Under the pieces are notes generated by a model that saw only the letters and a program-made list of their open reading frames with translations, had not been told where the DNA came from and made no database searches. From Pelomonas sp. Root1444 (lineage in GTDB: Bacteria > Pseudomonadota > Gammaproteobacteria > Burkholderiales > Burkholderiaceae_C), in contig NZ_LMFP01000026.1 of NCBI RefSeq assembly GCF_001426885.1, positions 1 to 64,000 on the forward strand: DNA of 64,000 bases. Reading direction: 5' to 3'. Below are positions 18,036 through 33,230 of this stretch, one piece after another. The translations under genes and the position numbers were made by a program. Every line of letters begins with the position of its first letter. Position 1 is the stretch's first letter.

Positions 18036-18620
18036 TCACTCCTTGATCGGCGTGCTGCACAAGGTTTTCATGACCATGTGGCCGAACATCAGGTGAACGT
18101 CCTCGCACATTTGCATGTCAAAGGAGTTGACCCAGACGCTGTGGTCGCACATGGGCATCATCTTGCCGCCGTCGTAACCGACCACGCCCAGCACCTTGCC
18201 TCCAGCGCGGCGCGCCGATTCAATGGCCTTGAGCACATTCGGCGAGTTGCCGCTGCCGCTCACCGCGATCAGCAAGTCGCCCTCGTCCATCAGTGCGTCG
18301 ACCTGGCCGGCGAAAACGTCGGCGTATGACAGGTCATTGCCGTAGGCCGTGATCAGGCCCATGTTGTCGCACAGACAGACGCCGCGGAACTTCCTGCCCG
18401 TGGCCAGATTGACCATCTTGTTCCAATCGGTGATGTAGTGCGAGGCGGTCGACGCGCTGCCGCCGTTGCCGCAAGTCAGGATCTTCTTGCCACTGTCGAA
18501 AGCGGCCTTGACCATGTCGATCCCTTGCTGGAAGGCATCGGTGTTCAGTTGTACAGCCAGTCGCGCGTGCGCGGCCAGATAGTTGGAGACAGTGAAGTTC
18601 GTAGCCATGGGGGACGTCAT
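18036..18620 (-). CDS. gmhA: Sedoheptulose-7-phosphate isomerase (GmhA-like SIS protein)
   Basis: A 194-residue SIS-domain isomerase, expected to make D-glycero-D-manno-heptose 7-phosphate in the first step of heptose activation. The phosphosugar-binding motif is CGNGGSASTASH (about residues 50-61), and SGSGNSPNVLKAIE is near 129-142. It is downstream of hddA and the fusion gene and completes a GDP-heptose route. The start is taken at the ATG overlapping the hddA stop (ATGA); an ATG four codons later is also possible and neither has a strong ribosome binding site. It could be a paralogue dedicated to this polysaccharide, with another copy for lipopolysaccharide core elsewhere. Confidence 0.88.
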   Translation of the reverse strand: MTSPMATNFTVSNYLAAHARLAVQLNTDAFQQGIDMVKAAFDSGKKILTCGNGGSASTASHYITDWNKMVNLATGRKFRGVCLCDNMGLITAYGNDLSYADVFAGQVDALMDEGDLLIAVSGSGNSPNVLKAIESARRAGGKVLGVVGYDGGKMMPMCDHSVWVNSFDMQMCEDVHLMFGHMVMKTLCSTPIKE

Positions 18621-19603
18621 TCGGTGGGTTGGTAGAACACGATCTGGGCGCCGGTACGGTCGAAACGGAACTTGACCGGCTGCAAATCGGCGAGCGCCGC
18701 GGTGATTGTCACGTGACGCTCGGGAGGGGCATAGAACATGATGAAACCGCCATTGCCCGCGCCGAGTAACTTGCCACCCAGGGCGCCACTGGCCATGCCT
18801 GCGGCATACCAAGCATCAATCTGCGGATCGGAGATGCCGGCTGTCAATTGGGCCTTGAGGCGCCAATTCTCGTCCAGCAGATCACCAAGGTGCTCAAGTG
18901 TGCCGGACTCCAACTGCTCCTTCATCTCGAAGGCCAACTTGACCATCCGGCGCATGAGTGCGCGACGATCGGTTGCTTTCATGGCTTCCGATTGGTTGGC
19001 CAGCACGGCAGATGCACTGCGCGTGCGCCCAGTGAAGAACACCAGGGTCGCATCTTCCATCTCCTGCAACAGCGCTGGCTTGCACATGACAGGGTCGACG
19101 GACACTGAATCGTCCGGATGGAAGCGGATCAGATTGAGGCCACCGTAGGCCGCCGCGTACTGGTCCTGTTTGCCTATCGGCTCTCCGCAGCGATGAATCT
19201 CGATCTCGCAGGCCTGACGAGCGAGTTTCTCCTTGGGCGCGAACTGGTTGCGATAGGCGTAGAGGGCGTTGAGCAGGCCGACGGTGTATGTGCTGGACGA
19301 GCCCAGACCGGAGCCCTTCGACGGAATGTCAGCCATCGACGCGATTTCGATGCCACCGTCAATGCCTACCAGATCCAGCGCCTCGCGCACGAGCGGATGC
19401 TCGACCTGTTGACGTCGCTCGACATCTTCGGTGCGCGTGTAGCTGACACGGATGCGACCGTCGAACTTCTTGTTGACGCAGATGTACATGTACTTGTCGA
19501 TCGACGTCGACAGTACGGCGCCCACCTCTTCGCGATAGAACGCGGGCAGGTCGCTTCCTCCGCCCACGAAGCTCATTCGCAACGGGGTCTTGCTGACGAT
19601 CAT
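18617..19603 (-). CDS. hddA: D-glycero-alpha-D-manno-heptose-7-phosphate kinase (GHMP)
   Basis: A 328-residue GHMP-superfamily kinase. The N-terminal motif PLRMSFVGGGSDLP (residues 7-20) is typical of HddA-like sugar kinases, and the ATP loop KGSGLGSSST is at 96-105. The C-terminal motif KLLGAGNGGFIMFY is about 274-287. It phosphorylates heptose-7-phosphate at C1, giving the 1,7-bisphosphate for the HAD domain encoded next door. Both ends overlap neighbours by four bases (ATGA), so translation is coupled with the fusion gene and gmhA. Confidence 0.9.
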   Translation of the reverse strand: MIVSKTPLRMSFVGGGSDLPAFYREEVGAVLSTSIDKYMYICVNKKFDGRIRVSYTRTEDVERRQQVEHPLVREALDLVGIDGGIEIASMADIPSKGSGLGSSSTYTVGLLNALYAYRNQFAPKEKLARQACEIEIHRCGEPIGKQDQYAAAYGGLNLIRFHPDDSVSVDPVMCKPALLQEMEDATLVFFTGRTRSASAVLANQSEAMKATDRRALMRRMVKLAFEMKEQLESGTLEHLGDLLDENWRLKAQLTAGISDPQIDAWYAAGMASGALGGKLLGAGNGGFIMFYAPPERHVTITAALADLQPVKFRFDRTGAQIVFYQPTE

Positions 19604-21543
19604 TCTTCTCCCTCGGGCTTTGGCGCTAGCTCAACAACAAAACTTGCAATTATCTGCGATCGCTCAACAGTCGGGGTTTCATCGAGTTCCCGTGCAGCCA
19701 GGGTCGTTAACTGTTCCTCGTCCGGCGTGCCTCGCCAAGCGTAGTCCTGCTTCAGCCGCGCCTCGCGGGTGGCGGGTGCCACATCCACGTACATCTTCAT
19801 CGTGTCGGGCCGTCCAAGCAGGTCGTCCATCAGCAGGGCGGGTACCCCCTCGACGATGAGAACGTCCTCGGGGCCGACGGAATGCTCGATGTGCTGGGCG
19901 CCGGCGTTGCGGGCGATGCGGTCGTACACAGGTTCCGACAGCACGACGCGCGAGCTCGAGTCCGCTGCGGCCGCTATGGCGGCCGATGCGGTGACCAGGT
20001 CGAAGCGCTCGCGCACGCCGGAGCCTTCGACGCGGTCGGACTTGGGCTTGAGCCAGCCATCCAGCGAGATCGCATGGGCCTGGCGCCCCAGCGCATGCAG
20101 CAGCTCCTTGAGCACCTGCGCGGCATAGCTCTTGCCTGCGCGGGCCAGGCCGCCGATGAGCACGAGACGCCGTCCCTGGCTGGCCTCGATGGCGATCGGC
20201 GCCAGGCGTCGCGTCAGTGCAGCGTGACCATCCAAGATCCATTCCACCGCGTCCGCGAGGTCGGGCGCAATGTAGTCAGGGCGGACTGCATGCTTGGCGT
20301 CTGCCCCCGCGTGACCGGTGCGCAGCAAGACCGTGCGAACGCCGGCGCGGCGGCCGGCTTCGACGTCCGAGGTGGTGTCGCCGATCATCCAGGAGTCACG
20401 GCGGCCGATGCCCAGATCGCGGCAAGCCTGATCGATCAAGCCCGGCTCGGGCTTGCGGCAACTGCAGGGGCCCTTGAGCGCCGGGACCTCGCCGGGAAAG
20501 CCCTTGTCTGGGTGGTGCGGGCAGAGGTAGAGGCCATCGAGGAAGGCGCCGCCGGCACCAAGCTGGGACTCCAGGCGGGCGTGAATGCGGTCCAGTCCTT
20601 CGAAGCTCACGTCGCCACGCGCAACCACGGGCTGGTTGGTGATGACCACAGCCAGCGTGCCGCTGCGGTTGAGGCGGCGGATGGCGGTGGCGGCACCAGG
20701 CAGCAGCTCGAGCTGGTCGGGTGACTTGAGGTGGGTGACCTCGCGGTTGATGGTGCCGTCACGGTCCAGAAAGACCGCGCTGCGCAACTGGCGACCGGAG
20801 AGCCGCTCGGGAAGGCCGGCGACGAAGTCGCGCTCGACCTTGTCCAGGCGTTCCGGCGTGCCCATGTCCTTGATGTACTCGGGCGTGACGTAGCCGTGCA
20901 GGCGGCGGCCAAGCTCGAGCATGCGGGGGAACATGTGCTTGGCGATGTCGGCCTTGCCTTCGGCGGGTGTGACGTCCTCCAGCCCGGCGCGATCCAGCAC
21001 GTACAGCGCCGCGTTGACGAGGTTGCGGACCTCGCGGCCTTCGGGATGTGGGTACGGCAGGATGGCGCGGACAGCCCCGTGCGAGTCGATGTCGACCAGG
21101 TCGGAGTCCTGTGGATGGTCATTAGGATGAAGGAACAGCGTGCCGACGGCGCCGGAGGCCTCGTGGGCGTTCCAGAGCTTGCGCAGATCAACGTCCATGA
21201 ACGTATCGCCGTAGAGCAGCAGGAAGCGGTCGGCGAGCAGGGGTAGCGCGTCGCGCAGGGCGCCGGAGGTGCCGCGCGGCTCGTCTTCGATGGCGTAGAT
21301 CAGCTTGACGCCAAAGGCCGAGCCGTCACCGAAGTACTCGGAGATCTTCTCGTGCCGGTGCTGGACCAGCAGCGCGATGTCGGTGAAGCCGTGCTTGCGG
21401 CAGAGGTCGATCTGATGATGCAGGACAGGTTTGCCGAGCACCGGCACCATCGGCTTGGGCAGGTCGCCGCTGCGCTCTCGCAGGCGGGTGCCCATGCCGC
21501 CGGCGAGGATGGCGACCTGACTTCTCGTGAGGGATGCGTTCAT
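19600..21543 (-). CDS. Three-domain heptose protein: nucleotidyltransferase + HAD phosphatase + P-loop kinase
   Basis: A 647-residue fusion. Domain 1 (about 8-240) is a sugar nucleotidyltransferase of the HddC/RmlA type, with LAGGMGTRLRE at 13-23, PKPMVPV at 29-35 and YGDT at 111-114. Domain 2 (about 254-440) is a HAD-IIIA phosphatase like GmhB, with FLDRDGTINRE (nucleophile D260, acid D262), a zinc-loop cysteine/histidine set between C341 and C362, and GDTTSDV at 388-394. Domain 3 (about 457-647) is a P-loop kinase-like domain with Walker A GLARAGKS ending at K471-S472 and a uridine-kinase flavour (SLDGWLKPKSDR, VEGVPAL). Domains 1 and 2 would make heptose-1-phosphate and then GDP-heptose. 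The role of domain 3 is unknown. Confidence 0.9.
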   Translation of the reverse strand: MNASLTRSQVAILAGGMGTRLRERSGDLPKPMVPVLGKPVLHHQIDLCRKHGFTDIALLVQHRHEKISEYFGDGSAFGVKLIYAIEDEPRGTSGALRDALPLLADRFLLLYGDTFMDVDLRKLWNAHEASGAVGTLFLHPNDHPQDSDLVDIDSHGAVRAILPYPHPEGREVRNLVNAALYVLDRAGLEDVTPAEGKADIAKHMFPRMLELGRRLHGYVTPEYIKDMGTPERLDKVERDFVAGLPERLSGRQLRSAVFLDRDGTINREVTHLKSPDQLELLPGAATAIRRLNRSGTLAVVITNQPVVARGDVSFEGLDRIHARLESQLGAGGAFLDGLYLCPHHPDKGFPGEVPALKGPCSCRKPEPGLIDQACRDLGIGRRDSWMIGDTTSDVEAGRRAGVRTVLLRTGHAGADAKHAVRPDYIAPDLADAVEWILDGHAALTRRLAPIAIEASQGRRLVLIGGLARAGKSYAAQVLKELLHALGRQAHAISLDGWLKPKSDRVEGSGVRERFDLVTASAAIAAAADSSSRVVLSEPVYDRIARNAGAQHIEHSVGPEDVLIVEGVPALLMDDLLGRPDTMKMYVDVAPATREARLKQDYAWRGTPDEEQLTTLAARELDETPTVERSQIIASFVVELAPKPEGEE

Positions 21544-22375: not shown

Positions 22376-23368
22376 TCAGAAGCCTTCTTGGCGGGCGATC
22401 TCGTCGATGGCGCGCAGGACGGCGGCCTCGGAGCCGAGCGCCGGCTTCCATCCCAGAGCCTGAATCTTGGCGGTCGAGTAATGGAACTTGGGCACGTCGC
22501 CGACCCAGCCACGATTTCCCGTGCCGAACTGGATGTGGGCGGAGGGTGCCACGCGCTTGACGACCTGCTCGGCGATCCAACGCACGAAGACGCCCTCGTC
22601 GACCGGGCCGACGTTGATCGGTAGTGTCTTGGGGATGTCGGCGCGCGAGCGGACGAGCAGCATGGCTGCGACCAGATCGCTGACATGCAGATACGCCTTG
22701 CGCTGGGTGCCGTTGCCCAGGACTTCGAGGCTGTTGCCGGTGGTCTTGAGCTTGCGGACGAAGTCGAGGATGACGCCGTGGGTCGCGGGCACGCCGACGA
22801 CGTTAGGGAAGCGGAAGAGGCAGGCGCACTCGAGGTGGCTCTCGGCGGCGGCGCTGATTAAGGCCTCGGAAGCGAGCTTCATGGCGCCGTAGTTGGAAAT
22901 CGGCAGCAGGGGGCCGATGTCCTCGTGCAGAGGTTGATCGCCGAGGTCGCCGTAGATCGCGGAGCTGGAGGCGAAGTAGAGTTTGGCGATCTTGTTGGCC
23001 TTCATGCAGCGAAGGATCTCGGCGGTGGTGAGGAAGGTGTCCTTCAGGTCGACGTCGGCATCGGCGACGCCGGCCGGGATGTCGGAGTTGGCGGCCAAAT
23101 GCCAGACTTCGTCGATGGCACCGAAGGTGGCGGCCTGGGCGAAAGCGGCTTGTGCTGGAGCGCGCTGCGCCAGGTCGGCTTCGATGAAATGCAGGCGCGA
23201 GGTGGCGCTGCCGACGCTCAGATAGTCGCGGCTGCCACGCAGCAGGTTATCGATCACCACGACGGTGCGGCCTTCCTCAAGGAGGCGTTCGCAAAGATTG
23301 GCGCCGATGAAGCCGGCGCCGCCGGCGACGATGGACGCACGGTTGCCTTGAATCGAATGATTTTCCAT
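22376..23368 (-). CDS. NAD-dependent sugar epimerase/dehydratase
   Basis: A 330-residue extended short-chain dehydrogenase acting on a nucleotide sugar. The NAD motif is VAGGAGFIGANL (about residues 14-25), the Ser region is YFASSSAIYGD, and Tyr-x3-Lys is in SNYGAMKLASE. The C-terminal VPKFHYSTAKIQALGWKP is typical of GalE/WbpP/HldD relatives. The start was set at the ATG at 23368; an upstream TTG at 23383 overlaps the preceding stop (TTGA) and could add five residues. It may act on the GDP-heptose or a 6-deoxy derivative, but this is inference. Confidence 0.87.
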   Translation of the reverse strand: MENHSIQGNRASIVAGGAGFIGANLCERLLEEGRTVVVIDNLLRGSRDYLSVGSATSRLHFIEADLAQRAPAQAAFAQAATFGAIDEVWHLAANSDIPAGVADADVDLKDTFLTTAEILRCMKANKIAKLYFASSSAIYGDLGDQPLHEDIGPLLPISNYGAMKLASEALISAAAESHLECACLFRFPNVVGVPATHGVILDFVRKLKTTGNSLEVLGNGTQRKAYLHVSDLVAAMLLVRSRADIPKTLPINVGPVDEGVFVRWIAEQVVKRVAPSAHIQFGTGNRGWVGDVPKFHYSTAKIQALGWKPALGSEAAVLRAIDEIARQEGF

Positions 23369-23379
23369 GATTTCTATTC

Positions 23380-24441
23380 TCAATATTCATGCCCCTGCAA
23401 TCGCAGGTGCGCCGTTGGATTCGCTTGATGGGCTCGCTTCAGATTGCGATATTCGCTTAGTTGGGAAGTTCTCTGTCTTGAGAGGATGGAAATCGAGAAA
23501 ATCACCGGATACAAGATGGCCATGTACCTAAAGTGGTAGAACGGCGATGCCGCGGCTACAACGACGATGAAAGGAATCGAATTAACGATAAACGTCGTAA
23601 GGATTCGATGACGTATCAGGGCGAAAAGGAATAATAACTGGCACGCGCCCTCAAAAATAACAAATGGATCCGCGCCGCTGAGAAATTTAACGACGGAGCC
23701 CAGCGGCTGAATGAAGGGAGAAACGAGAAGGAGGATCGAACGGCCAGCGACGGGAATCGGAGAATAGCCAAGCGTGAGTTCACGCCCCAACTGCGCCAAC
23801 GCGCCCGAACCCTCGTCCGAGACGATTCCTTCCAGCATGGACAACGACTCTTCGCCAGTTCCGGTTGCAAGGAAAACAGCGGACACAACGACTGCAAACG
23901 CAGTTGCCTTCCTAAGCCCGTAGCGGATGGAAACAAAAGCCAGTGGTAAGAAAAGAACCAGTGCAGGACGCACAAGCACGGCAATCGAAATCACGATCGC
24001 CAGCGCGGCATGCCATACTGAAATTCGTTTGGTCGCGATGATGGCTATGCTTGCCAGCGCCAAGATTGCAAGCCCATCCTTCCCCGTTTGAGCAACGTAG
24101 AAAAATGCGAGCGGGGAAAGTGTTGCGTAGCGAAGCTCTTTTCGGTCATCGCCGTTCAGCACCGCGAATACGCAAAGGCCAATAAATGCAACAAAGCCAA
24201 TGTAAAAAGGGAGATGCTGATAGATGAACTTAAGCAGCAAAACGATGGTATAGGAGGAGGAGTCTGCCAAATATTCAGGCAGGTCGGAGCGAGCAAAGTA
24301 CTCGTATCGGAGGGGGTCAAATCCTTCCTCGCGGGCGACTTCGAAACCGTTTACGAGAAACCAGATGGTCGCGGAAAGACCCACGAACAACACCGCAGCA
24401 ATCAGATTGCCGAGAGCGGAGGGACGGACCGATCTGCGCAT
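23380..24441 (-). CDS. Polytopic membrane protein, probable O-antigen/capsule polymerase (Wzy-like)
   Basis: A 353-residue integral membrane protein with about nine or ten hydrophobic segments and a longer loop near residues 205-235. It contains FYVAQTGKDGLAILALAS, a pattern seen in Wzy/EpsG-like polymerases, and no glycosyltransferase motif. It sits where a polymerase would be expected and no other candidate is present. GC content is close to one half by eye, far below its neighbours, so it was probably acquired separately. The assignment rests on topology and context only. Confidence 0.6.
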   Translation of the reverse strand: MRRSVRPSALGNLIAAVLFVGLSATIWFLVNGFEVAREEGFDPLRYEYFARSDLPEYLADSSSYTIVLLLKFIYQHLPFYIGFVAFIGLCVFAVLNGDDRKELRYATLSPLAFFYVAQTGKDGLAILALASIAIIATKRISVWHAALAIVISIAVLVRPALVLFLPLAFVSIRYGLRKATAFAVVVSAVFLATGTGEESLSMLEGIVSDEGSGALAQLGRELTLGYSPIPVAGRSILLLVSPFIQPLGSVVKFLSGADPFVIFEGACQLLFLFALIRHRILTTFIVNSIPFIVVVAAASPFYHFRYMAILYPVIFSISILSRQRTSQLSEYRNLKRAHQANPTAHLRLQGHEY

Positions 24442-24450
24442 TTGGATGGA

Positions 24451-25293
24451 CTATTCGGACGCGCAAGCGATTTGCCGCTCATTCGGAAGGAAGAAGTCGC
24501 GGGGGGCGTCTGTCGTGAACATGGGAGGCGACCACGTCGGAGCGGCAGGGTCTCCGAAGGCCGCCGCCCACCACGCGAAGGTACTGTTGCCAATTATTCG
24601 TCCCGGCGCACTACGCAGCGTATCAAAGTCCTCCAGAGCATTCGCCCCGCGCTCAAGCATTCGGAAGGTAGCGCCAGGGCACTGGCCCTGGACGGCGTTG
24701 CATACCTTTGCCGCGTACGTCGCGTCATCGGTGATCACCGCGAAGCGTGTGAAGCCCCGTGCCATTGATTGCCTCACTGCGTCAACGTAGAAGGGCGCAT
24801 TGACCACCTGGAAACGAGGGAGCTCCAGGAAGTCGCCTCCTCGAATGTGAACGGCGATCTCACCCACCAATAGGCGCTCGGCGGCTCGGGCGGCGATCGG
24901 CCGAACTTGCATCGCGCTTATTGCCCTTGCAAACGTCTCCTGCGTCCAGCCGTGTTGAAAGTAGCCGTCGGCGAAGAAGGGCAACCGCGAACGGGTTGCT
25001 TTGTTGCTCTGCCAGAACGTCTTATCGTTGACTCCCAGACCCGGTAGCAACCGGCCCGCGCGCGCGGATACCGATAGCCAGCGACGGATGCGCAGTTCCG
25101 TAGTCGATGCTACGTGAAGCCATTGGTTGTCCATCAACAGCTTGATCGAGTCCGGGTCTCGTGGCGAGTCGTACCTCTGTAGAGCGTCGGTGAACACTGT
25201 GACGGGCGTCTGTCTGCATTGTGAGAGCAGAGCCACCGCAGCAAGTTGATACAGCTGATTTCCAAGGCCACCGGACAGGCGCAGATAGATCAT
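24451..25293 (-). CDS. Alpha-1,2-fucosyltransferase-like protein (GT11)
   Basis: A 280-residue protein of glycosyltransferase family 11. It begins with YLRLSGGLGNQLYQLA (residues 3-18), the family's N-terminal signature. HIRGGDF at 149-155 corresponds to the conserved HxRxGD donor-binding motif. Near the C-terminus, IIGNSTFAWWAAAFG matches the conserved NSTFSWW block. The family normally uses GDP-L-fucose. No GDP-fucose synthase gene is present in the window and the neighbouring gmd-like gene is broken, so the donor must come from elsewhere or be a different GDP-6-deoxysugar. The long upstream extension in the same frame is a shadow of the next gene. Confidence 0.88.
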   Translation of the reverse strand: MIYLRLSGGLGNQLYQLAAVALLSQCRQTPVTVFTDALQRYDSPRDPDSIKLLMDNQWLHVASTTELRIRRWLSVSARAGRLLPGLGVNDKTFWQSNKATRSRLPFFADGYFQHGWTQETFARAISAMQVRPIAARAAERLLVGEIAVHIRGGDFLELPRFQVVNAPFYVDAVRQSMARGFTRFAVITDDATYAAKVCNAVQGQCPGATFRMLERGANALEDFDTLRSAPGRIIGNSTFAWWAAAFGDPAAPTWSPPMFTTDAPRDFFLPNERQIACASE

Positions 25294-25316
25294 GGCAGGT
25301 AGAGGCGGTAGTGCCG

Positions 25317-26309: not shown

Positions 26310-26876
26310 TCAGCGCAGCGGTTCAAAGACCAGCGTTGACGCACCGCGTCGCACCAGGGTCTCAGGTGGCACGTCGCGATCTACGGTGACGCCGGCCGCT
26401 ATGACGGATCCGCGCCCAATCGTGACCTGACCGACCATGGTCACGCCAGCACCGATCCAGACGTCATCCTCAACGACGATGAGCTTCTCTCCGCCACCGC
26501 CGGAGAATCGCGGCTGCACGCCTTTGCCGAAGCGGTGACCACCTGCGACGATGGAGCAGCCAGGCGCGATCAGCACCCGATCGCCGATGCGCACATTGCC
26601 GACGACCGCGGTCAACGCGTTGACCTGCGAGTACGCGCCGATGTCCACGCCATCCTGGCCCGCGTTGATGTACACGTGCGCACCGATCTCCGCGAAGCGC
26701 CCGATGCGCGTTTCACCGGAAAGCGTCGCGAGCGGATGGCGGAAGTACAGCGCTCGTCGTCCCTTGCTCAGCGCCCGGAAAGGAATCAGCAGGGCCGCCG
26801 GCCACAGGCGGGCCAGCGTCTTGAGAGCGTTCGCGGGCCGCGGCTTTGCCGCTTCTGCTTCAGGGGCTGCGCTCAT
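26310..26876 (-). CDS. Hexapeptide-repeat acetyltransferase (WcaF/CysE-like)
   Basis: A 188-residue left-handed beta-helix acyltransferase. Repeats run from about residue 57 to 175, such as IGRFAEIGAHVYINAG, VRIGDRVLIAPGCSIVAGG and VWIGAGVTMVGQVTIGRGS. An insertion loop, HRFGKGVQPRFSGGG, lies at about 114-128. The end VRRGASTLVFEPLR is the cap. It probably O-acetylates a sugar. It overlaps the alkaline-phosphatase-like gene upstream by four bases and ends 21 bases before the next membrane protein gene. Confidence 0.87.
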   Translation of the reverse strand: MSAAPEAEAAKPRPANALKTLARLWPAALLIPFRALSKGRRALYFRHPLATLSGETRIGRFAEIGAHVYINAGQDGVDIGAYSQVNALTAVVGNVRIGDRVLIAPGCSIVAGGHRFGKGVQPRFSGGGGEKLIVVEDDVWIGAGVTMVGQVTIGRGSVIAAGVTVDRDVPPETLVRRGASTLVFEPLR

Positions 26877-28231
26877 CGTGAGCCTCGGGAAGAAGTGGAT
26901 TCAAAAAGATGAGCGTTGTCGGCAGGCACCGTCTTGTCGGAGTCGTCGCCGCTGGACACGATGTACGGCACCTGTCCCTCATACGCCGTCGGCTGGACGT
27001 CGCAGCCCGTCTCCCGGTACTTCGCGTGTTTGCACCACACCGTCGGCCGCAAAGGGTGATCCGAAATCACGATCAGCCGAAAGCCGGCGCCGAAGCGCTC
27101 ATGGCCCTGCCGCCACATCTGCGCCGCGATCTGCCCCGCGAGCTGCAGGTTGTCCGCGTAGTCGGCCGCGAGTCCGGCACTGGGCAGATGGCCCGGCGGA
27201 TGAGGGAAGGGAAGATGTGCATACAGCGTCCCCCCCCCGCTCTGCCAAAACGGCGATTGCATCGCCGCGTCGCGCACTCGCTCACGAAAGGCTTTCCAAT
27301 CGTCCGCCGCGAACCAGTCGCAATCGCTGGCCTTTCGCCCGGGCAGCAAGCGCCCAAAGCTGCACAGCAGGCTGCTGACGGGCGGCCTACTCGGCGGCGC
27401 GAAACGGGCGCATGAGGCCTGGCCGCTCGCGGCGCAGTACGGGTGATGGAAGCCGACGATGTGCACGCCATCCGACGGATCAAAGCGCAGACGCGAGAAG
27501 TCAAACGTGCCCGTGCGATCGCACACCGCCGTCGGTGTGCATACGCGCGCTTGCGGCACGTGCGGGCCGCCGAACATCTCCGGAATCACCGTGATCGTCG
27601 AAGCACCGACCGTCCTGATCCGATGCGTGCGCGGCGCACCGCCAGCTTGCGTGATCGCAGCCGCGATCTGCTCGCCCGCCTCGGCATTGAGCTCGTCCAG
27701 CAGCAGCACGACCGTCGCGCCCTGCGCAGACGTACCCGTCGGCACGCGCACGTAAACCGGATCCATCGCCCGCACGGCCAGCATCGGAAAGGTCACGAAC
27801 AGCAGGCCGCCAACGACCAGCGCCGCCTGCATGCGCCGCCAGTGCGCCGACGACAACTTGGCCGCCGCCAGCCAGGCCAGCAGCAGCGTGCCGAGTGCGA
27901 GTCCGATCTTGTGAACGGCGCCCAGCTCAACGGGAAAAAGCGGCAGCGCCCGGATCGCGGGTTGGAAGACGTAGACCGCCGCGGCGACCGTCAGCACGCG
28001 CAGCGCGGCTTCGGCCAGCCAAGCGGGTAGCAGCAACGCCAGCGGCACCAGGGCTAGCAGCACGACGCCGAACAACGCGACCACGGCCAGACAAATGCCG
28101 CCCGGCGACTGATCGCCGTGATATAGGCTGCTCAAGACCCAGTCCGCGCGAGACAGCAGCATCAGCAACGCCACGATCATTGCGTGCGCGACCCAATGGC
28201 CCAGACGACGCGGGCTTGCCGCAACGCTCAT
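26873..28231 (-). CDS. Alkaline-phosphatase-superfamily membrane enzyme with a G9 tract
   Basis: A 452-residue protein with about five N-terminal membrane helices (to about residue 165) and a C-terminal periplasmic domain. VVLLLDELNAEAG (about 184-196) sits where sulfatases and phosphoethanolamine transferases hold their first metal-binding acid, and VISDHPLRP near residue 400 resembles the late SDHG metal motif. It may add a charged group to the glycan or a lipid. Within SGGGTLYAH the gene carries nine G in a row (minus strand of 27230-27238). The start is the ATG five bases after the methyltransferase stop. The sulfatase-like assignment is moderate. Confidence 0.65.
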   Translation of the reverse strand: MSVAASPRRLGHWVAHAMIVALLMLLSRADWVLSSLYHGDQSPGGICLAVVALFGVVLLALVPLALLLPAWLAEAALRVLTVAAAVYVFQPAIRALPLFPVELGAVHKIGLALGTLLLAWLAAAKLSSAHWRRMQAALVVGGLLFVTFPMLAVRAMDPVYVRVPTGTSAQGATVVLLLDELNAEAGEQIAAAITQAGGAPRTHRIRTVGASTITVIPEMFGGPHVPQARVCTPTAVCDRTGTFDFSRLRFDPSDGVHIVGFHHPYCAASGQASCARFAPPSRPPVSSLLCSFGRLLPGRKASDCDWFAADDWKAFRERVRDAAMQSPFWQSGGGTLYAHLPFPHPPGHLPSAGLAADYADNLQLAGQIAAQMWRQGHERFGAGFRLIVISDHPLRPTVWCKHAKYRETGCDVQPTAYEGQVPYIVSSGDDSDKTVPADNAHLFESTSSRGSR

Positions 28232-28236
28232 CCCGC

Positions 28237-29553
28237 TCACAGCTTCTCCAGCAACGCCAGCCGGCGCGACGATCCTTCCAGCGCGATTTCCTCGACGGTG
28301 CGGAAGCGCTCTTCGAAGGCATGACGCTGGGCCTCGAGTGTGAAGCCCGCGCCGTCGGCGCGATCGCGGTTGGTCAGCAGCTCCTGGACCATCGGATCCT
28401 GGGGCTCGAGATACTCGACGATCAGATGACGACGCGTGGACGCTGCCATTAGCGCGGCCACCTCGCTCATCGGAATGCTGCGCCCGATCGCTAAATGGTG
28501 GATCAAGGCCAGCGCCATCGTGACGTCCGCCTGCGCGCCCAGCCGTTGAACGAGGCCGCGATACTCGCGCCCCATCCAACCCCGACCGGTCGGCAGATCG
28601 TCCAAGCCCGTGCAGACCGTGTAGATCGGCGTGGCGGCCGTGATACGCGTGCGCAGATGCTCGATCGCCGGCATGTCCGCGTCCACCGCGATCACGCCCG
28701 CGCTCGCGACGTCCGCGGCGATAAGCGAGTACTCACCCTGGTTGCAGCCCAGATCCGCGACCCAACTCGGCGACACGCCGGACAGCCAGCGAGCAACGAT
28801 CGCGCGCTTGCGCGCAAGATCGACCGCGGGATAGTGGCTGCGCGTCTGCTCGTACGCGGCCCACATCGAAGCCCGCGGCGCGCGATGCAATCCCGCGAGC
28901 TGCCAACGCAGAAAATCGATCAGCCCCTTGTGCAGCGGCTTCAGCAGCGTGGCCTTTGACGCTGCCGGCTCCGAAGATGCAGCGGCATTGCCACCCGACG
29001 ACTGCATCAGCGCGATGCTGATCCGCGAGGTCCAGCGCTTGGTCCCCAGCAGCGCGCGCGCCGACTCCGGCGACAGTCCGTCAAGGCCGGCCTTGAACAC
29101 GTCCGACGGTTCTATGCCTCGGTGGCATGACGCTGCCAGTGGAAACACGAAGTGACGAAGGAACTGGCCGTAGGCCCACCACTGTCGACGCTCAATCGGC
29201 TGCACCGAGAAGTGGTCGCAAAACTCCGCCCGCTCGCGCTCGAACAACACATTGAGCGCCGAGGCATCCTTCAGCTCTAGGCCTTCTGCCAGTGCTGTCT
29301 CCGCGACGTCCAGCGTCGTGCTTGCTGCCTGCAGAAACTGCCCGTGCGTCCATTCCCAAGGGTAGGTCGTGAACCCCACCTTACGTGCCCGGATCAGTTG
29401 GCGCCCCTCGAATGCGAACGGCGTCAACAGACCGCGCTTCACCAGTTCCGCCGCGGACGGCGAATCAAGGAAGTGCGGTGAAGGCAGTGGCGAGTAGGCG
29501 TGCCTGAGCACACTGTCGGCCGTCACCTCGACCCGTCCGATCGGATCCCTCAT
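28237..29553 (-). CDS. NoeA-like methyltransferase with kinase-like N-terminus
   Basis: A 438-residue protein. The C-terminal half is a class I SAM methyltransferase: [18 protein letters not shown] with D267-E274 as motif I, then VIAVDAD. The N-terminal half (MRDPIGRV..., [21 protein letters not shown]) looks like proteins annotated as NoeA-like nodulation methyltransferases. Residues D96, N101 and D113 are spaced like the catalytic loop and metal aspartate of APH/protein kinases. The start overlaps the stop of the 65-residue membrane protein (ATGA), and the alkaline-phosphatase-like gene begins 5 bases after it, so the three form a module. Substrate unknown. Confidence 0.75.
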
Positions 29554-29747
29554 TTTTTCTTGCGCAGTCGGGAGATCAGGGCTTTGATCGCGACGAGCGG
29601 ATTCTTCACGAACACGATGATCGCGCCTACCAGGGCAACTAATCCTTGCACCAGTAGCATCCCGGCGCCCGGGTCGACGTAGGCGTGCGCGGACAAGGGC
29701 AACAATGCCAGCAGCAGGGCGATGCGAAGGCTGCACGGATTCTTCAT
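29550..29747 (-). CDS. 65-residue YVDPGAG membrane protein
   Basis: A very small protein with an N-terminal signal-like segment (residues 4-20, ending LSAHA) followed by [20 protein letters not shown], a second hydrophobic stretch and a basic tail RLRKKK. Short proteins with a Y-(I/V)-D-P-G-x-G motif recur near polysaccharide and methyltransferase genes in my memory of such loci; I know of no assigned function. The start is the ATG 13 bases after the remnant gmd stop. The reading frame is open further upstream only because it runs into the frameshifted gmd remnant. It is coupled to the methyltransferase gene by an ATGA overlap. Confidence 0.7.
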
Positions 29748-29760
29748 AGCGTGTGCCGAA

Positions 29761-30069
29761 TCACTCATGGTGATCGTAGGCGCGGAACCGGCGGCCTTGA
29801 CGAGGCTGTCGTGGCGCGCAGCGGTGTAGTCGGCCTCGACCATCTCGGCCACGAGCTTGCAGTCGGTCAGGTCGGCGTAGTGCAGCTTGAAGCGCTGGTT
29901 GTCGACGTGCGGGTCTTGATAGAGGTGGTCGACGCGATCGGTGTTGAACAGCCTGCTGCGGCGCTTGATGCCGTGCACCTCGTAGCCCTTGGACATAAGC
30001 AACTCGGCGAGATAGGAACCGGCTTGGCCCGTTACGCCCGTGATGGGAGGCGACTTTGCGTTGTGACAT
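29761..30069 (-). pseudogene. gmd: GDP-mannose (or GDP-heptose) 4,6-dehydratase remnant
   Basis: The ATG at 30069 gives MSQRKVA; then a one-base insertion (near 30046-30050) shifts frame. In the shifted frame one reads [18 protein letters not shown] and then [39 protein letters not shown], unmistakably the N-terminus of Gmd. It jumps directly to [20 protein letters not shown], the Gmd C-terminal helix, so roughly 250 central codons are missing. A one-base loss near 29783-29787 returns to the first frame, giving FRAYDHHE and a TGA at 29761. The catalytic Tyr-x3-Lys region is gone. The original gene may have been gmd or the related heptose enzyme dmhA/wcbK. Confidence 0.9.
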
Positions 30070-30127
30070 ATGTGTTCTGTAATGCGCTGCGCAAATGGCA
30101 GCTGCTCGACAAGGGCGTCTTGTAAGC

Positions 30128-31339
30128 TTAGCGACGCAGGGCCAGACGGAATCTGGAATAACGCTCGGCGTTGCGTGGGTCTGTTGTGGTCCGACGCCAG
30201 AGATGGCGAGTGAGAATGGCAATCACGAACAGTACGAAAGTTCCGGCGCCAATGCTGGCCGCAATCGCCAGCCGCCTGGGTTTACTTTTCAGTTCTGGCG
30301 GCGTGGCTATGTCAACGACTTGGAGTAGAGCGCCTTCACGGCTCTCGTCCACACGCGCGATCTCATACTGGCGGGCGAATTGTTCAAAGAGCGCTTCCTG
30401 ATACTTGAACTCGCGGTAGCGTCCAATGTAGTTGGCGTCATTTGTACTGCTGGAACTGGACTCCAGACGTTGCACTTGCGCGCGCAAAGCGCCGACTTTG
30501 GCGGACTGTGTTTGCAGCTCCGGAGAACCTTCAGCCATAACGTGACTCAGTGTCCGCAATTTGACTTCTGCAGCGGTCAGCTCTGCGCGCAGCAGGGCAA
30601 ACGTTTCTGCGGCGGCCTTTGGTTCGGCCTTCAGCGCGCCCTCGGTAAAGCCGCTTCGCTGCAGAGCGAGTTGAGCCTCTGTCAGTTTGACTTTGGCGCG
30701 TTGCAATTCGCCTTCAAAGAAGACCCGGCGTTGCTGAGCTTCTGTCAATGCGAGATCGCTGGATAGGCGACGCAGCTCGGCGACGAACTGATTGGCAATA
30801 TCTGCCGCCATTTGCGGCGAACCGGAATCGACCTCGATTGCGATCAATCCGTCTTTCTTGCCCAGACTGATGCGGACGTCTTGTTCCAGTCGCTTTCGCG
30901 CGCTGGCACGGTACTCGGTCTTGTACTCGTCCATGAGCTTGAAGCGGTCGATAATGCGATCCCCGACATTCACGCTGCTCAACAGAGCGAGGTACTGATC
31001 GCCAGGCGTCTTGATCGCACCAGCCGCCCCGCCCGCAATACCGGCCAGCGAGCCCAGAGATGCCAGGGCGGATGCTGTTGCGCTCTGCTGCTGCTGCGGA
31101 GGCAGGAACACGGTACGGGCCGTGAAGGTCGGACTGATAAGGAAGGTACAACCTAGTGCTGCAGCGCCCGTAATGACTGGAGTCAGGATGAGTTTGCGCC
31201 AGTGCAAGGCCAGCGCAGTGCCGATCTCCAACATGTCGGGCCCTTCGAATTCGCCCGGATAGCTGTGATCACCTGATGGCGGTTCGGAGATCGGGAGAGG
31301 CATGCTGCTATTGGGGTTGCTGGTGCTGCTTGTGGTCAA
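30128..31339 (-). CDS. Wzz-type chain-length determinant
   Basis: A 403-residue inner-membrane protein of the polysaccharide co-polymerase family. TM1 is at about residues 50-71 ([20 protein letters not shown]), and a Gln/Ser-rich periplasmic start follows (FLPPQQQQS). A long helical coiled-coil region spans about 180-330. TM2 is at about 362-382, preceded by the proline motif [12 protein letters not shown], the classic PxxPxxPxR-like element. There is no C-terminal tyrosine kinase domain. It sets glycan length. GC content is lower than in the housekeeping genes. It lies 19 bases after the Wza-like gene and is transcribed with it. Confidence 0.9.
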
Positions 31340-31358: not shown

Positions 31359-33230
31359 TCAGTTCTTGATAGTCTTCAATGCCGCGGCACCCAGGCCGAA
31401 CTGATACAGAATTTGCGTCCAATCCTTTGCCTCCTGCAGGAAGCTCGTCTTGTCTATCTCTTCAGGAACGAAGATCGTGTCGCCTGGCAGGGCTGGGATA
31501 TTGGTCATAGCGGATCCGATACTCAACCAGCCGGTGTTGTTCCGCCGCGCGCTGGCCACCGAACCGTTGGCTCGAATGACGAAGATGCTGCCGGTGTCGG
31601 CACCACGGGTGGCGCCACCGGCCAGTTGTAGCATGTCGTCGATGGAGTTACCGGATTTCAGCAGGTAGCTACCGCCGTTGAAGACACTGCCAAACACGCC
31701 GACCGTGGTCGGGCGTGGAGGGATATACAGGCGATCACCATCTTCAACGGCCAAGGTTGGCAGCCCCTGAGTGTCGGTCGTGAGGTCGAGCACGATGCGC
31801 CCACTAGGGCGCACGGCACGCAGGCGTTCGATGAGCCGGCTGGTGCTAGCCTGCTTTTGCGATGCAGCCTGCGCCTCGTCGGCCGTGTTGACCTTCTGTG
31901 TCGACGTGTTGCGCGTGAAGTCGGTTTCAAGGTCCCGGAGCGCGCGGTCGTACTGCACCTCCTGCACCTTGCGCACGCTTTCGCGTGAAAAGTCAGTGCC
32001 GAACACATAGGCCTGCGGCGTAAATCCGCCCGCTGCCTTAACGGCGTCCATCAGCGTGCTCGTTGGGGGCAGCACATAGTCGCCGGGACGGGCCACCTCG
32101 CCTTCGATGCGCACGTTCTTGTATTGCTTGGCCTGTGGCAGTGCGGCCGTCACGCTGTTGAAAGCGCGCAGTACATCGCCATTGGCGACTTTCAAGTTGC
32201 CCTCGCGCGGCAGTGCAAGTTCGGTCACACGACGGTCGTTGCGATCGCTGAGCCGCTCGATAGCAATGCGGCTGGCATCCGCCACGGTAGAAAGGCCGGC
32301 CACATAAGCGACCGCATCATTGACTGTATCGCTCGGCTTTAATTCCACCACTGCCGGCTTGTTCACGCTGCCTATCAGGGCGATTTGCGGGCCGATGGGG
32401 CCCACGTGAAGGACGTCATCGGCCTGCAACGGCAGGTCGCCTTTCTTGTCGCCGCGCACCAGCAGATCGTAGAGGTCGAAGCGGCCGATGGTCTGGCCAT
32501 TGCGGCGCAGTTCGATGTTGCGGAAACTACCGGCGGCGGAGGGGCCGCCAGATTGAACCAAGCCGGTCATCACAGTGGCCAAGCTGCTCACGCTGTAGGC
32601 GCCGGGCTTCGTCGCAAAGCCCGTCACGTAGTAGCGGATGCTGCGAAGCCGTCCGAGCATGGCGCTGAGCTGGAAGTTCTTGAATACCTGGCCGACGCGG
32701 CGCGTTAGCAGATCGTTCAGATCGGCGTGGCGCACGCCGGCGACCACCACCGGCCCGACACGCGGGATGACGATGCGGCCGGCGCGGTCCACCGTCAGTC
32801 GCAGATCGGCATCGACAGAGCCCCACAGCGTGAGTTGGATCTCATCACCCAAGCCCACCAGGTAGTCCGCCGGCACCTGCCGATTCGCTTCCTGCGCGGC
32901 CAGGCTGCGCGACGGCAGCATCAGGTCACTGCCCAGGCGCTGGATGGTCGTGCCGGCCAGCTGACTGGCATAAGCCTCGAATTCGCTGAGGATAGGCTTG
33001 GCCGGTGCGAAAGACGAGGGGCGAACCGGCGTTTCTTCAGGCAGGGGAGGGCGCGCCTGCTCGTCAGTCGTCTGAAGAGGGCGTGCGGGGCTGCCCAGAC
33101 GAACAGGTCCTTGCACGGCGCTCGTGCTGTCGGAATCAGCGGTGTCTGTTGCTGCAAAAGTCGCGGCGTTGCCCCCCAGCAGCGCGGTGGCCACGAAGCC
33201 TGAGATCAGGCGTAAGCGCAAGTCGTTCAT
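31359..33230 (-). CDS. Wza-like polysaccharide export protein with SLBB domains
   Basis: A 623-residue exported protein. The signal peptide ends near AATFAA (residues 22-27), and there is no lipobox cysteine, unlike E. coli Wza. A polysaccharide-export domain begins around VPADYLVGLGDEIQLTLWGS (about 119-138), followed by several SLBB beta-grasp units (RYYVTGFATKPGAYSV, VRIEGEVARPGDYVLPPTS, VGVFGSVFNGGSYLL). It would form the outer-membrane or periplasmic channel for the glycan and works with the Wzz protein encoded next. First gene of the minus-strand operon, divergent from the wecA-like gene. Confidence 0.9.
   Translation of the reverse strand: MNDLRLRLISGFVATALLGGNAATFAATDTADSDSTSAVQGPVRLGSPARPLQTTDEQARPPLPEETPVRPSSFAPAKPILSEFEAYASQLAGTTIQRLGSDLMLPSRSLAAQEANRQVPADYLVGLGDEIQLTLWGSVDADLRLTVDRAGRIVIPRVGPVVVAGVRHADLNDLLTRRVGQVFKNFQLSAMLGRLRSIRYYVTGFATKPGAYSVSSLATVMTGLVQSGGPSAAGSFRNIELRRNGQTIGRFDLYDLLVRGDKKGDLPLQADDVLHVGPIGPQIALIGSVNKPAVVELKPSDTVNDAVAYVAGLSTVADASRIAIERLSDRNDRRVTELALPREGNLKVANGDVLRAFNSVTAALPQAKQYKNVRIEGEVARPGDYVLPPTSTLMDAVKAAGGFTPQAYVFGTDFSRESVRKVQEVQYDRALRDLETDFTRNTSTQKVNTADEAQAASQKQASTSRLIERLRAVRPSGRIVLDLTTDTQGLPTLAVEDGDRLYIPPRPTTVGVFGSVFNGGSYLLKSGNSIDDMLQLAGGATRGADTGSIFVIRANGSVASARRNNTGWLSIGSAMTNIPALPGDTIFVPEEIDKTSFLQEAKDWTQILYQFGLGAAALKTIKN

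Follow-up and report, generated by a model that had tools for sequence, protein, structure and literature searches.

In this study, we analyzed a window of 64,000 bases (positions 1-64000 of contig C26, in a genome of 5.89 Mb and 33 contigs) and found at 29761..30069, on the minus strand, a short stretch inside a polysaccharide operon that reads, from its sequence, as a pseudogene of gmd. Very probably, this pseudogene is what remains of a complete gmd that headed the cassette, immediately behind wzz, and that was spare there and decayed.

Structure of the gmd remnant

A search of the genome for another gmd, as had been proposed when the remnant was first described, located a full copy at C26:104084-105208, about 74 kb away, which encodes 374 residues and reached 591 bits with the NCBIfam model TIGR01472 (cut-off 415). 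Direct reading of the minus strand and alignment to this intact gene together delimited the remnant from its original start codon to its original stop codon. From 30069 to 29761 the strand encodes MSQRKVA, a one-base shift, 61 residues, the deletion junction, 23 residues, a second one-base shift and FRAYDHHE followed by the stop. The early shift (+1) lies near codon 8, between GTCGCC and ATCACGGGC, and the late shift (-1) lies in GG-TTC. Specifically, the Gmd front part, from ITGVTGQ to LTD, occupies 29862..30044 (-) in the original frame; the Gmd tail, which has lost one base before FRAYDHHE and ends with AYDHHE and the stop, occupies 29761..29855 (-); and the junction between them falls at 29858..29861 (-), a position uncertain within about 3 bases. 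The two shifts cancel each other and thereby produce an open frame of 102 codons, in which just the first 7 and the last 8 codons are those of gmd and the remainder is in another frame.

Comparison with the intact host gene by blastn gave an E-value of 9e-61, with the front (30044..29861) aligned gap-free at 88% identity over 184 bases and the tail aligned at 80% with one gap, ending at the gmd stop codon. The remnant also matched PF16363 at 80.9 bits, and both results are far beyond chance. Between the end of the front match and the start of the tail match lie about 816 bases in the intact gene and 3 in the remnant. The loss from the middle amounts to about 813 bp, in frame (1125 - 309 = 816, from which the one additional codon at the start of the host gene is subtracted), and about 271 codons are absent. 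With them the remnant has lost the catalytic middle of Gmd, where we take the catalytic residues to lie. Relative to gmd as represented by TIGR01472, PF16363 and the E. coli structure 1db3, the remnant shares the start, the NAD-binding front and the C-terminal tail, but it is without these middle codons and its frame, intact in the homologues, is broken by two one-base shifts.

These results agree with the original prediction of a collapsed GDP-sugar 4,6-dehydratase gene within the operon, in which a Gmd N-terminus is joined to a C-terminal part with the centre deleted, and in which a one-base insertion after MSQRKVA is cancelled by a one-base loss before FRAYDHHE. The accompanying statement that both ends match almost exactly was too strong, as the nearest relatives are 89-90% identical in the front and at most 86.5% in the tail (query 29400-30250). 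With the same query, homology to the gmds of relatives begins at most 5 bases from the start codon and ends at most 6 bases from the stop. Searches of the surroundings found no repeats of at least 12 bases in 29400-30250 and no promoter-like or terminator-like sites in 29500-30300.

Probable decay of the remnant and its position behind wzz

The front part was first compared with 36 gmds, and 28 intact ones were retained, namely those with a protein identity of at least 76%, matches of at least 300 residues and both parts found. In 252 compared bases the remnant carries 8 private substitutions, distributed 2/3/3 over codon positions 1/2/3. For the initial count of constraint, 14 of the 28 were picked by hand as the nearest (12 of the genus, presumably Roseateles, including the host's own, and two of other genera; L160, a further member of the genus, was omitted), and their pooled private substitutions were 8/1/38 (Fisher exact test, positions 1 and 2 against 3, p 0.02). 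Adding L160, which made 15 intact gmds, gave 8/3/41 and p 0.03, and all 28 gave 13/3/41 and p 0.10. Since p rises to 0.10 with the full set, the codon-position test taken by itself is suggestive. In addition, at sites where all 28 intact gmds agree, the remnant has six private residues, compared with at most two in any intact gene, and these six were the same under all three comparison sets (14, 15 and 28 genes). Protein-level constraint has thus been lost, and the six private residues together with the deletion and both shifts point to drift. The damage had been regarded as recent. The remnant is indeed still easily read, but its eight private substitutions, six private residues, two shifts and large deletion mean that it has been drifting for some time.

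The remnant starts 58 bases behind the stop codon of wzz, at the head of a variable cassette. The conserved genes end with the wzz-like gene for a chain-length protein (30128..31339 (-); PF02706 28.3 bits, cut-off 25.5), after which the variable part follows, and a putative polysaccharide export (Wza-like) gene, named by its place and sequence, stands at 31359..33230 (-). To place this boundary among relatives, 100 wzz loci were examined, 20 from one genome set and 80 kept of 176 from another, with five pairs having identical wzz. A wza-type gene was upstream of wzz on the same strand in 97 of the 100 loci, and 73 of these 97 also carried a wecA-type gene on the other strand; the genes behind wzz vary from genome to genome. 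Nine of the 100 loci hold a gmd of at least 70% identity within 10 kb behind wzz. One of them, a Roseateles MAG (L082), has gmd directly next after wzz, with the contig ending inside gmd. A homologue of fcl (58-59% identity to the host's) stands between wzz and gmd in two loci, L072 and L117, the former with an additional short ORF; one other ORF separates the two genes in L049; and in the other five loci gmd lies 2.9 to 7.7 kb from wzz.

The collapsed form was sought in two collections. The first comprised 149 genomes, including the host's own and all 19 other genomes of the genus, and was queried with the 310-base stretch, taking at most the best four candidates per genome. Matches were obtained in 74 of the 149 genomes, and among the matches listed none had the collapsed form: where front and tail were on the same contig they were about 1 kb apart, as in intact genes, and the remaining listed matches had the two parts on different contigs or held one part alone. 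The second collection, 399 genomes of the family with the host's own included, was queried with 160 bases across the junction, taking the best two candidates per genome. Here 169 of the 399 genomes matched, and among the matches listed (E to about 1e-5) the window alone spans the whole query; of the other listed matches, the better ones are confined to the front (1-84) or to the tail (82 onward), and a few weak ones extend across the junction for roughly 50-60 bases. The collections searched yielded no sister strain, and hence no intact allele at this very site, and the nearest wzz is at most 62% identical at the protein level, so the history of an older cassette is one that we infer.

According to the reading we favor, gmd would have been the first gene of such an older cassette, directly behind wzz. 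With another locus making that nucleotide sugar, the copy would have been spare, and a large deletion, two shifts of one base each and point changes would then have brought about its decay. That the gene once functioned at exactly this place, the order in which the changes came and redundancy as their cause are points that we infer.

First among the alternatives, the remnant might be a partial duplicate of the host's intact gmd, generated by recombination and never functional here. The two sequences are in the same genome and on the same contig, and their 88% identity over 184 bases is slightly below that of the nearest relatives. Yet the gmds of L146 and L147 are slightly closer to the remnant than the host gene is (89-90% vs 87.5%), and the homology is bounded by the start and stop codons, with no flanking sequence carried along. 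Furthermore, the tree groups the host gmd with that of L150 at 97% support and leaves the remnant, whose own place is weakly supported, outside this pair. This grouping makes a separate gmd likelier than a recent copy of the host gene, and we consider the duplication improbable.

Second, the short ORF might itself function as a gene, or serve as a leader on which ribosomes are kept moving toward the following start codon. The stop codon of the remnant overlaps with a candidate ATG of the gene behind it (ATGAGTGA), no stop codon interrupts the frame between the original start and stop, and an estimate from base composition puts the chance of 101 codons remaining open at 7%. On the other hand, 10 of the 28 intact homologues also have this shifted frame open across the parts compared, which indicates that its openness needs no selection. 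Moreover, the frame read with its upstream codons included had no Pfam match, and the short ORF was absent from the other genomes among the matches listed for the 149 and the 399 genomes. A working gene is therefore quite unlikely, and so, to the same degree, is the retention of the remnant, with its cancelling shifts, as a short leader that is translated up to the start of the next gene and thereby sustains expression of the downstream operon.

Third, sequencing or assembly error could be invoked, as one-base shifts are a usual type of error and the assembly is a 33-contig draft. The 813-base loss and the six private residues at invariant sites are not readily explained by errors, and the flanking genes are open, which leaves this explanation with very little probability.

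Identity of the lost gene and the sugar supply of the cassette

A structure-sequence search with the remnant as it stands (window 29790-30044) matched 1db3, the Gmd of E. coli, at an E-value of 2.4e-29. Eight further matches followed at 1.8e-23 to 3.1e-21, seven of which are named GDP-mannose dehydratase, the other, 5uzh, having no telling name; two more Gmd structures, 2z1m (2.2e-7) and 1rpn (1.9e-6), matched weakly. The GDP-heptose 4,6-dehydratase structure 7us5, a DmhA/WcbK protein of the same SDR superfamily, matched far more weakly, at 0.0014. NCBIfam gave a concordant result, with TIGR01472 (gmd) reaching 2.4e-28 as against 0.0015 for the second-best model. The TIGR01472 score of 99.4 bits falls short of the curated, full-length cut-off of 415, which identifies the stretch as the remnant of a gmd and not as a Gmd enzyme. 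The remnant is nearer to Gmd than to other SDR dehydratases, and alignment to both families thus speaks clearly for the former; judged on these matches, the lost gene is gmd, not dmhA/wcbK.

The original prediction had allowed that the lost enzyme could be DmhA/WcbK instead, with the strain having switched, for example, from 6-deoxy-heptose to heptose, but the GmhA-, HddA- and HddC-like genes that favor this in the same cassette score under curated cut-offs, while the structure matches, the NCBIfam models and the identity of the remnant DNA to the host's own gmd make it extremely improbable. A DmhA/WcbK origin of the remnant was rejected by sequence.

Directly after the remnant, at 29550..29747 (-), lies a gene of uncertain exact start, whose 65-residue product begins, by eye, with a signal-like segment and contains the motif YVDPG. 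It had no Pfam match, and the pattern Y[VI]DPG[ASTM] followed by a stop within 90 residues was found, among the examined loci, only in those holding this stretch. The next gene, at 28237..29553 (-), overlaps it by four bases (ATGA) and matched a methyltransferase model below the cut-off (20.6 bits vs 27). An ORF of at most 568 residues at 26873-28579 (-) looks by eye like a membrane protein; it gave no Pfam match, and its last 445 residues gave no NCBIfam match. Further along the cassette are a GT11-family glycosyltransferase gene with an approximate start (24451..25305 (-); PF01531 30.7 bits, cut-off 23.9) and an intact SDR epimerase gene (22376..23383 (-)). The nearest solved relative of the latter is 3ehe, a UDP-glucose 4-epimerase, and by this relationship the gene is GalE-like; 7us5 was absent among its 19 matches (up to 1e-15).

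The heptose-type genes occupy 18036..21543 (-) and comprise a nucleotidyltransferase/GmhB-like fusion, an HddA-like kinase and a GmhA-like isomerase. The presence of GmhA-, HddA- and HddC-like genes, as described earlier, was confirmed, but not the identities given by those names, as the NCBIfam scores are under the curated cut-offs for HddA, HddC, GmhB and GmhA. The best NCBIfam model for the nucleotidyltransferase part of the fusion is a mannose-1-phosphate guanylyltransferase. Given these scores and this model, a heptose pathway in the cassette is likely, not proven. The fusion itself (19600-21543 (-), 647 residues) consists of an HddC-like nucleotidyltransferase, a GmhB-like HAD phosphatase and about 200 more residues, which include a P-loop-like GGLARAGKS (by eye) and had no Pfam match.

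Parts of this region have counterparts elsewhere. At 7.3-9.4 kb behind the wzz of L045 (genome G016), an epimerase, a GT2 and an HddC-like gene stand in the same order as in the window cassette, with identities of 58%, 51% and 75%, this third value covering the 55 residues with which the stretch ends; no gmd was found behind this wzz in the stretch examined. In addition, three MAG contigs (L116, L122 and L127), which bear the apparently doubtful label Bordetella parapertussis, hold a wza-wzz pair related to that of the window.

The gene after the intact gmd matched GDP-L-fucose synthase (fcl) at 6.7e-149 and 495.4 bits, just under the cut-off of 500, and both genes stand behind putative exosortase-type genes, so named by sequence. 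From its gene content, the genome can be expected to make GDP-4-keto-6-deoxymannose via the intact gmd and, with the adjoining fcl, probably makes GDP-fucose; a supply of GDP-fucose from this other locus to the window cassette is plausible. With an intact gmd and an adjoining fcl in the same genome, the glycan change that had been expected from the loss of the remnant's enzyme is unsupported.

Comparable remnants and implications

An inactivated gmd is present in the O-antigen cluster of Yersinia pestis, likewise a broken gmd within a polysaccharide cluster. In the Salmonella B1 and D1 O-antigen clusters, PMC3715488 describes a wzy remnant left by different serial deletions, with an active wzy elsewhere. 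These wzy remnants resemble the gmd remnant in being degraded by deletion within the cluster while another locus supplies the function. They differ in that wzy, several serovars and nearby IS elements are concerned there, whereas here the gene is gmd, the case is a single genome and repeats alone were searched for. PMC8706939, judged by its title, concerns mutation of gmd and resistance to phage in Vibrio cholerae. None of the literature titles listed dealt with remnants of gmd within polysaccharide clusters or with exopolysaccharide clusters of Roseateles. The gmd remnant is of the same kind as the remnants already described, with another gene, and is in this respect ordinary.

The remnant is a small fossil that points to gmd as the former first gene of the cassette, and it has little reach beyond this genome. 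Neither the 102-codon ORF nor the 150-codon frame that runs across the remnant should be annotated as a gene. GT11 is, as we understand it, a family of fucosyltransferases. If the GT11 gene of the cassette encodes a fucosyltransferase, its GDP-fucose must now be supplied by the second polysaccharide locus, an arrangement that would link the two loci.
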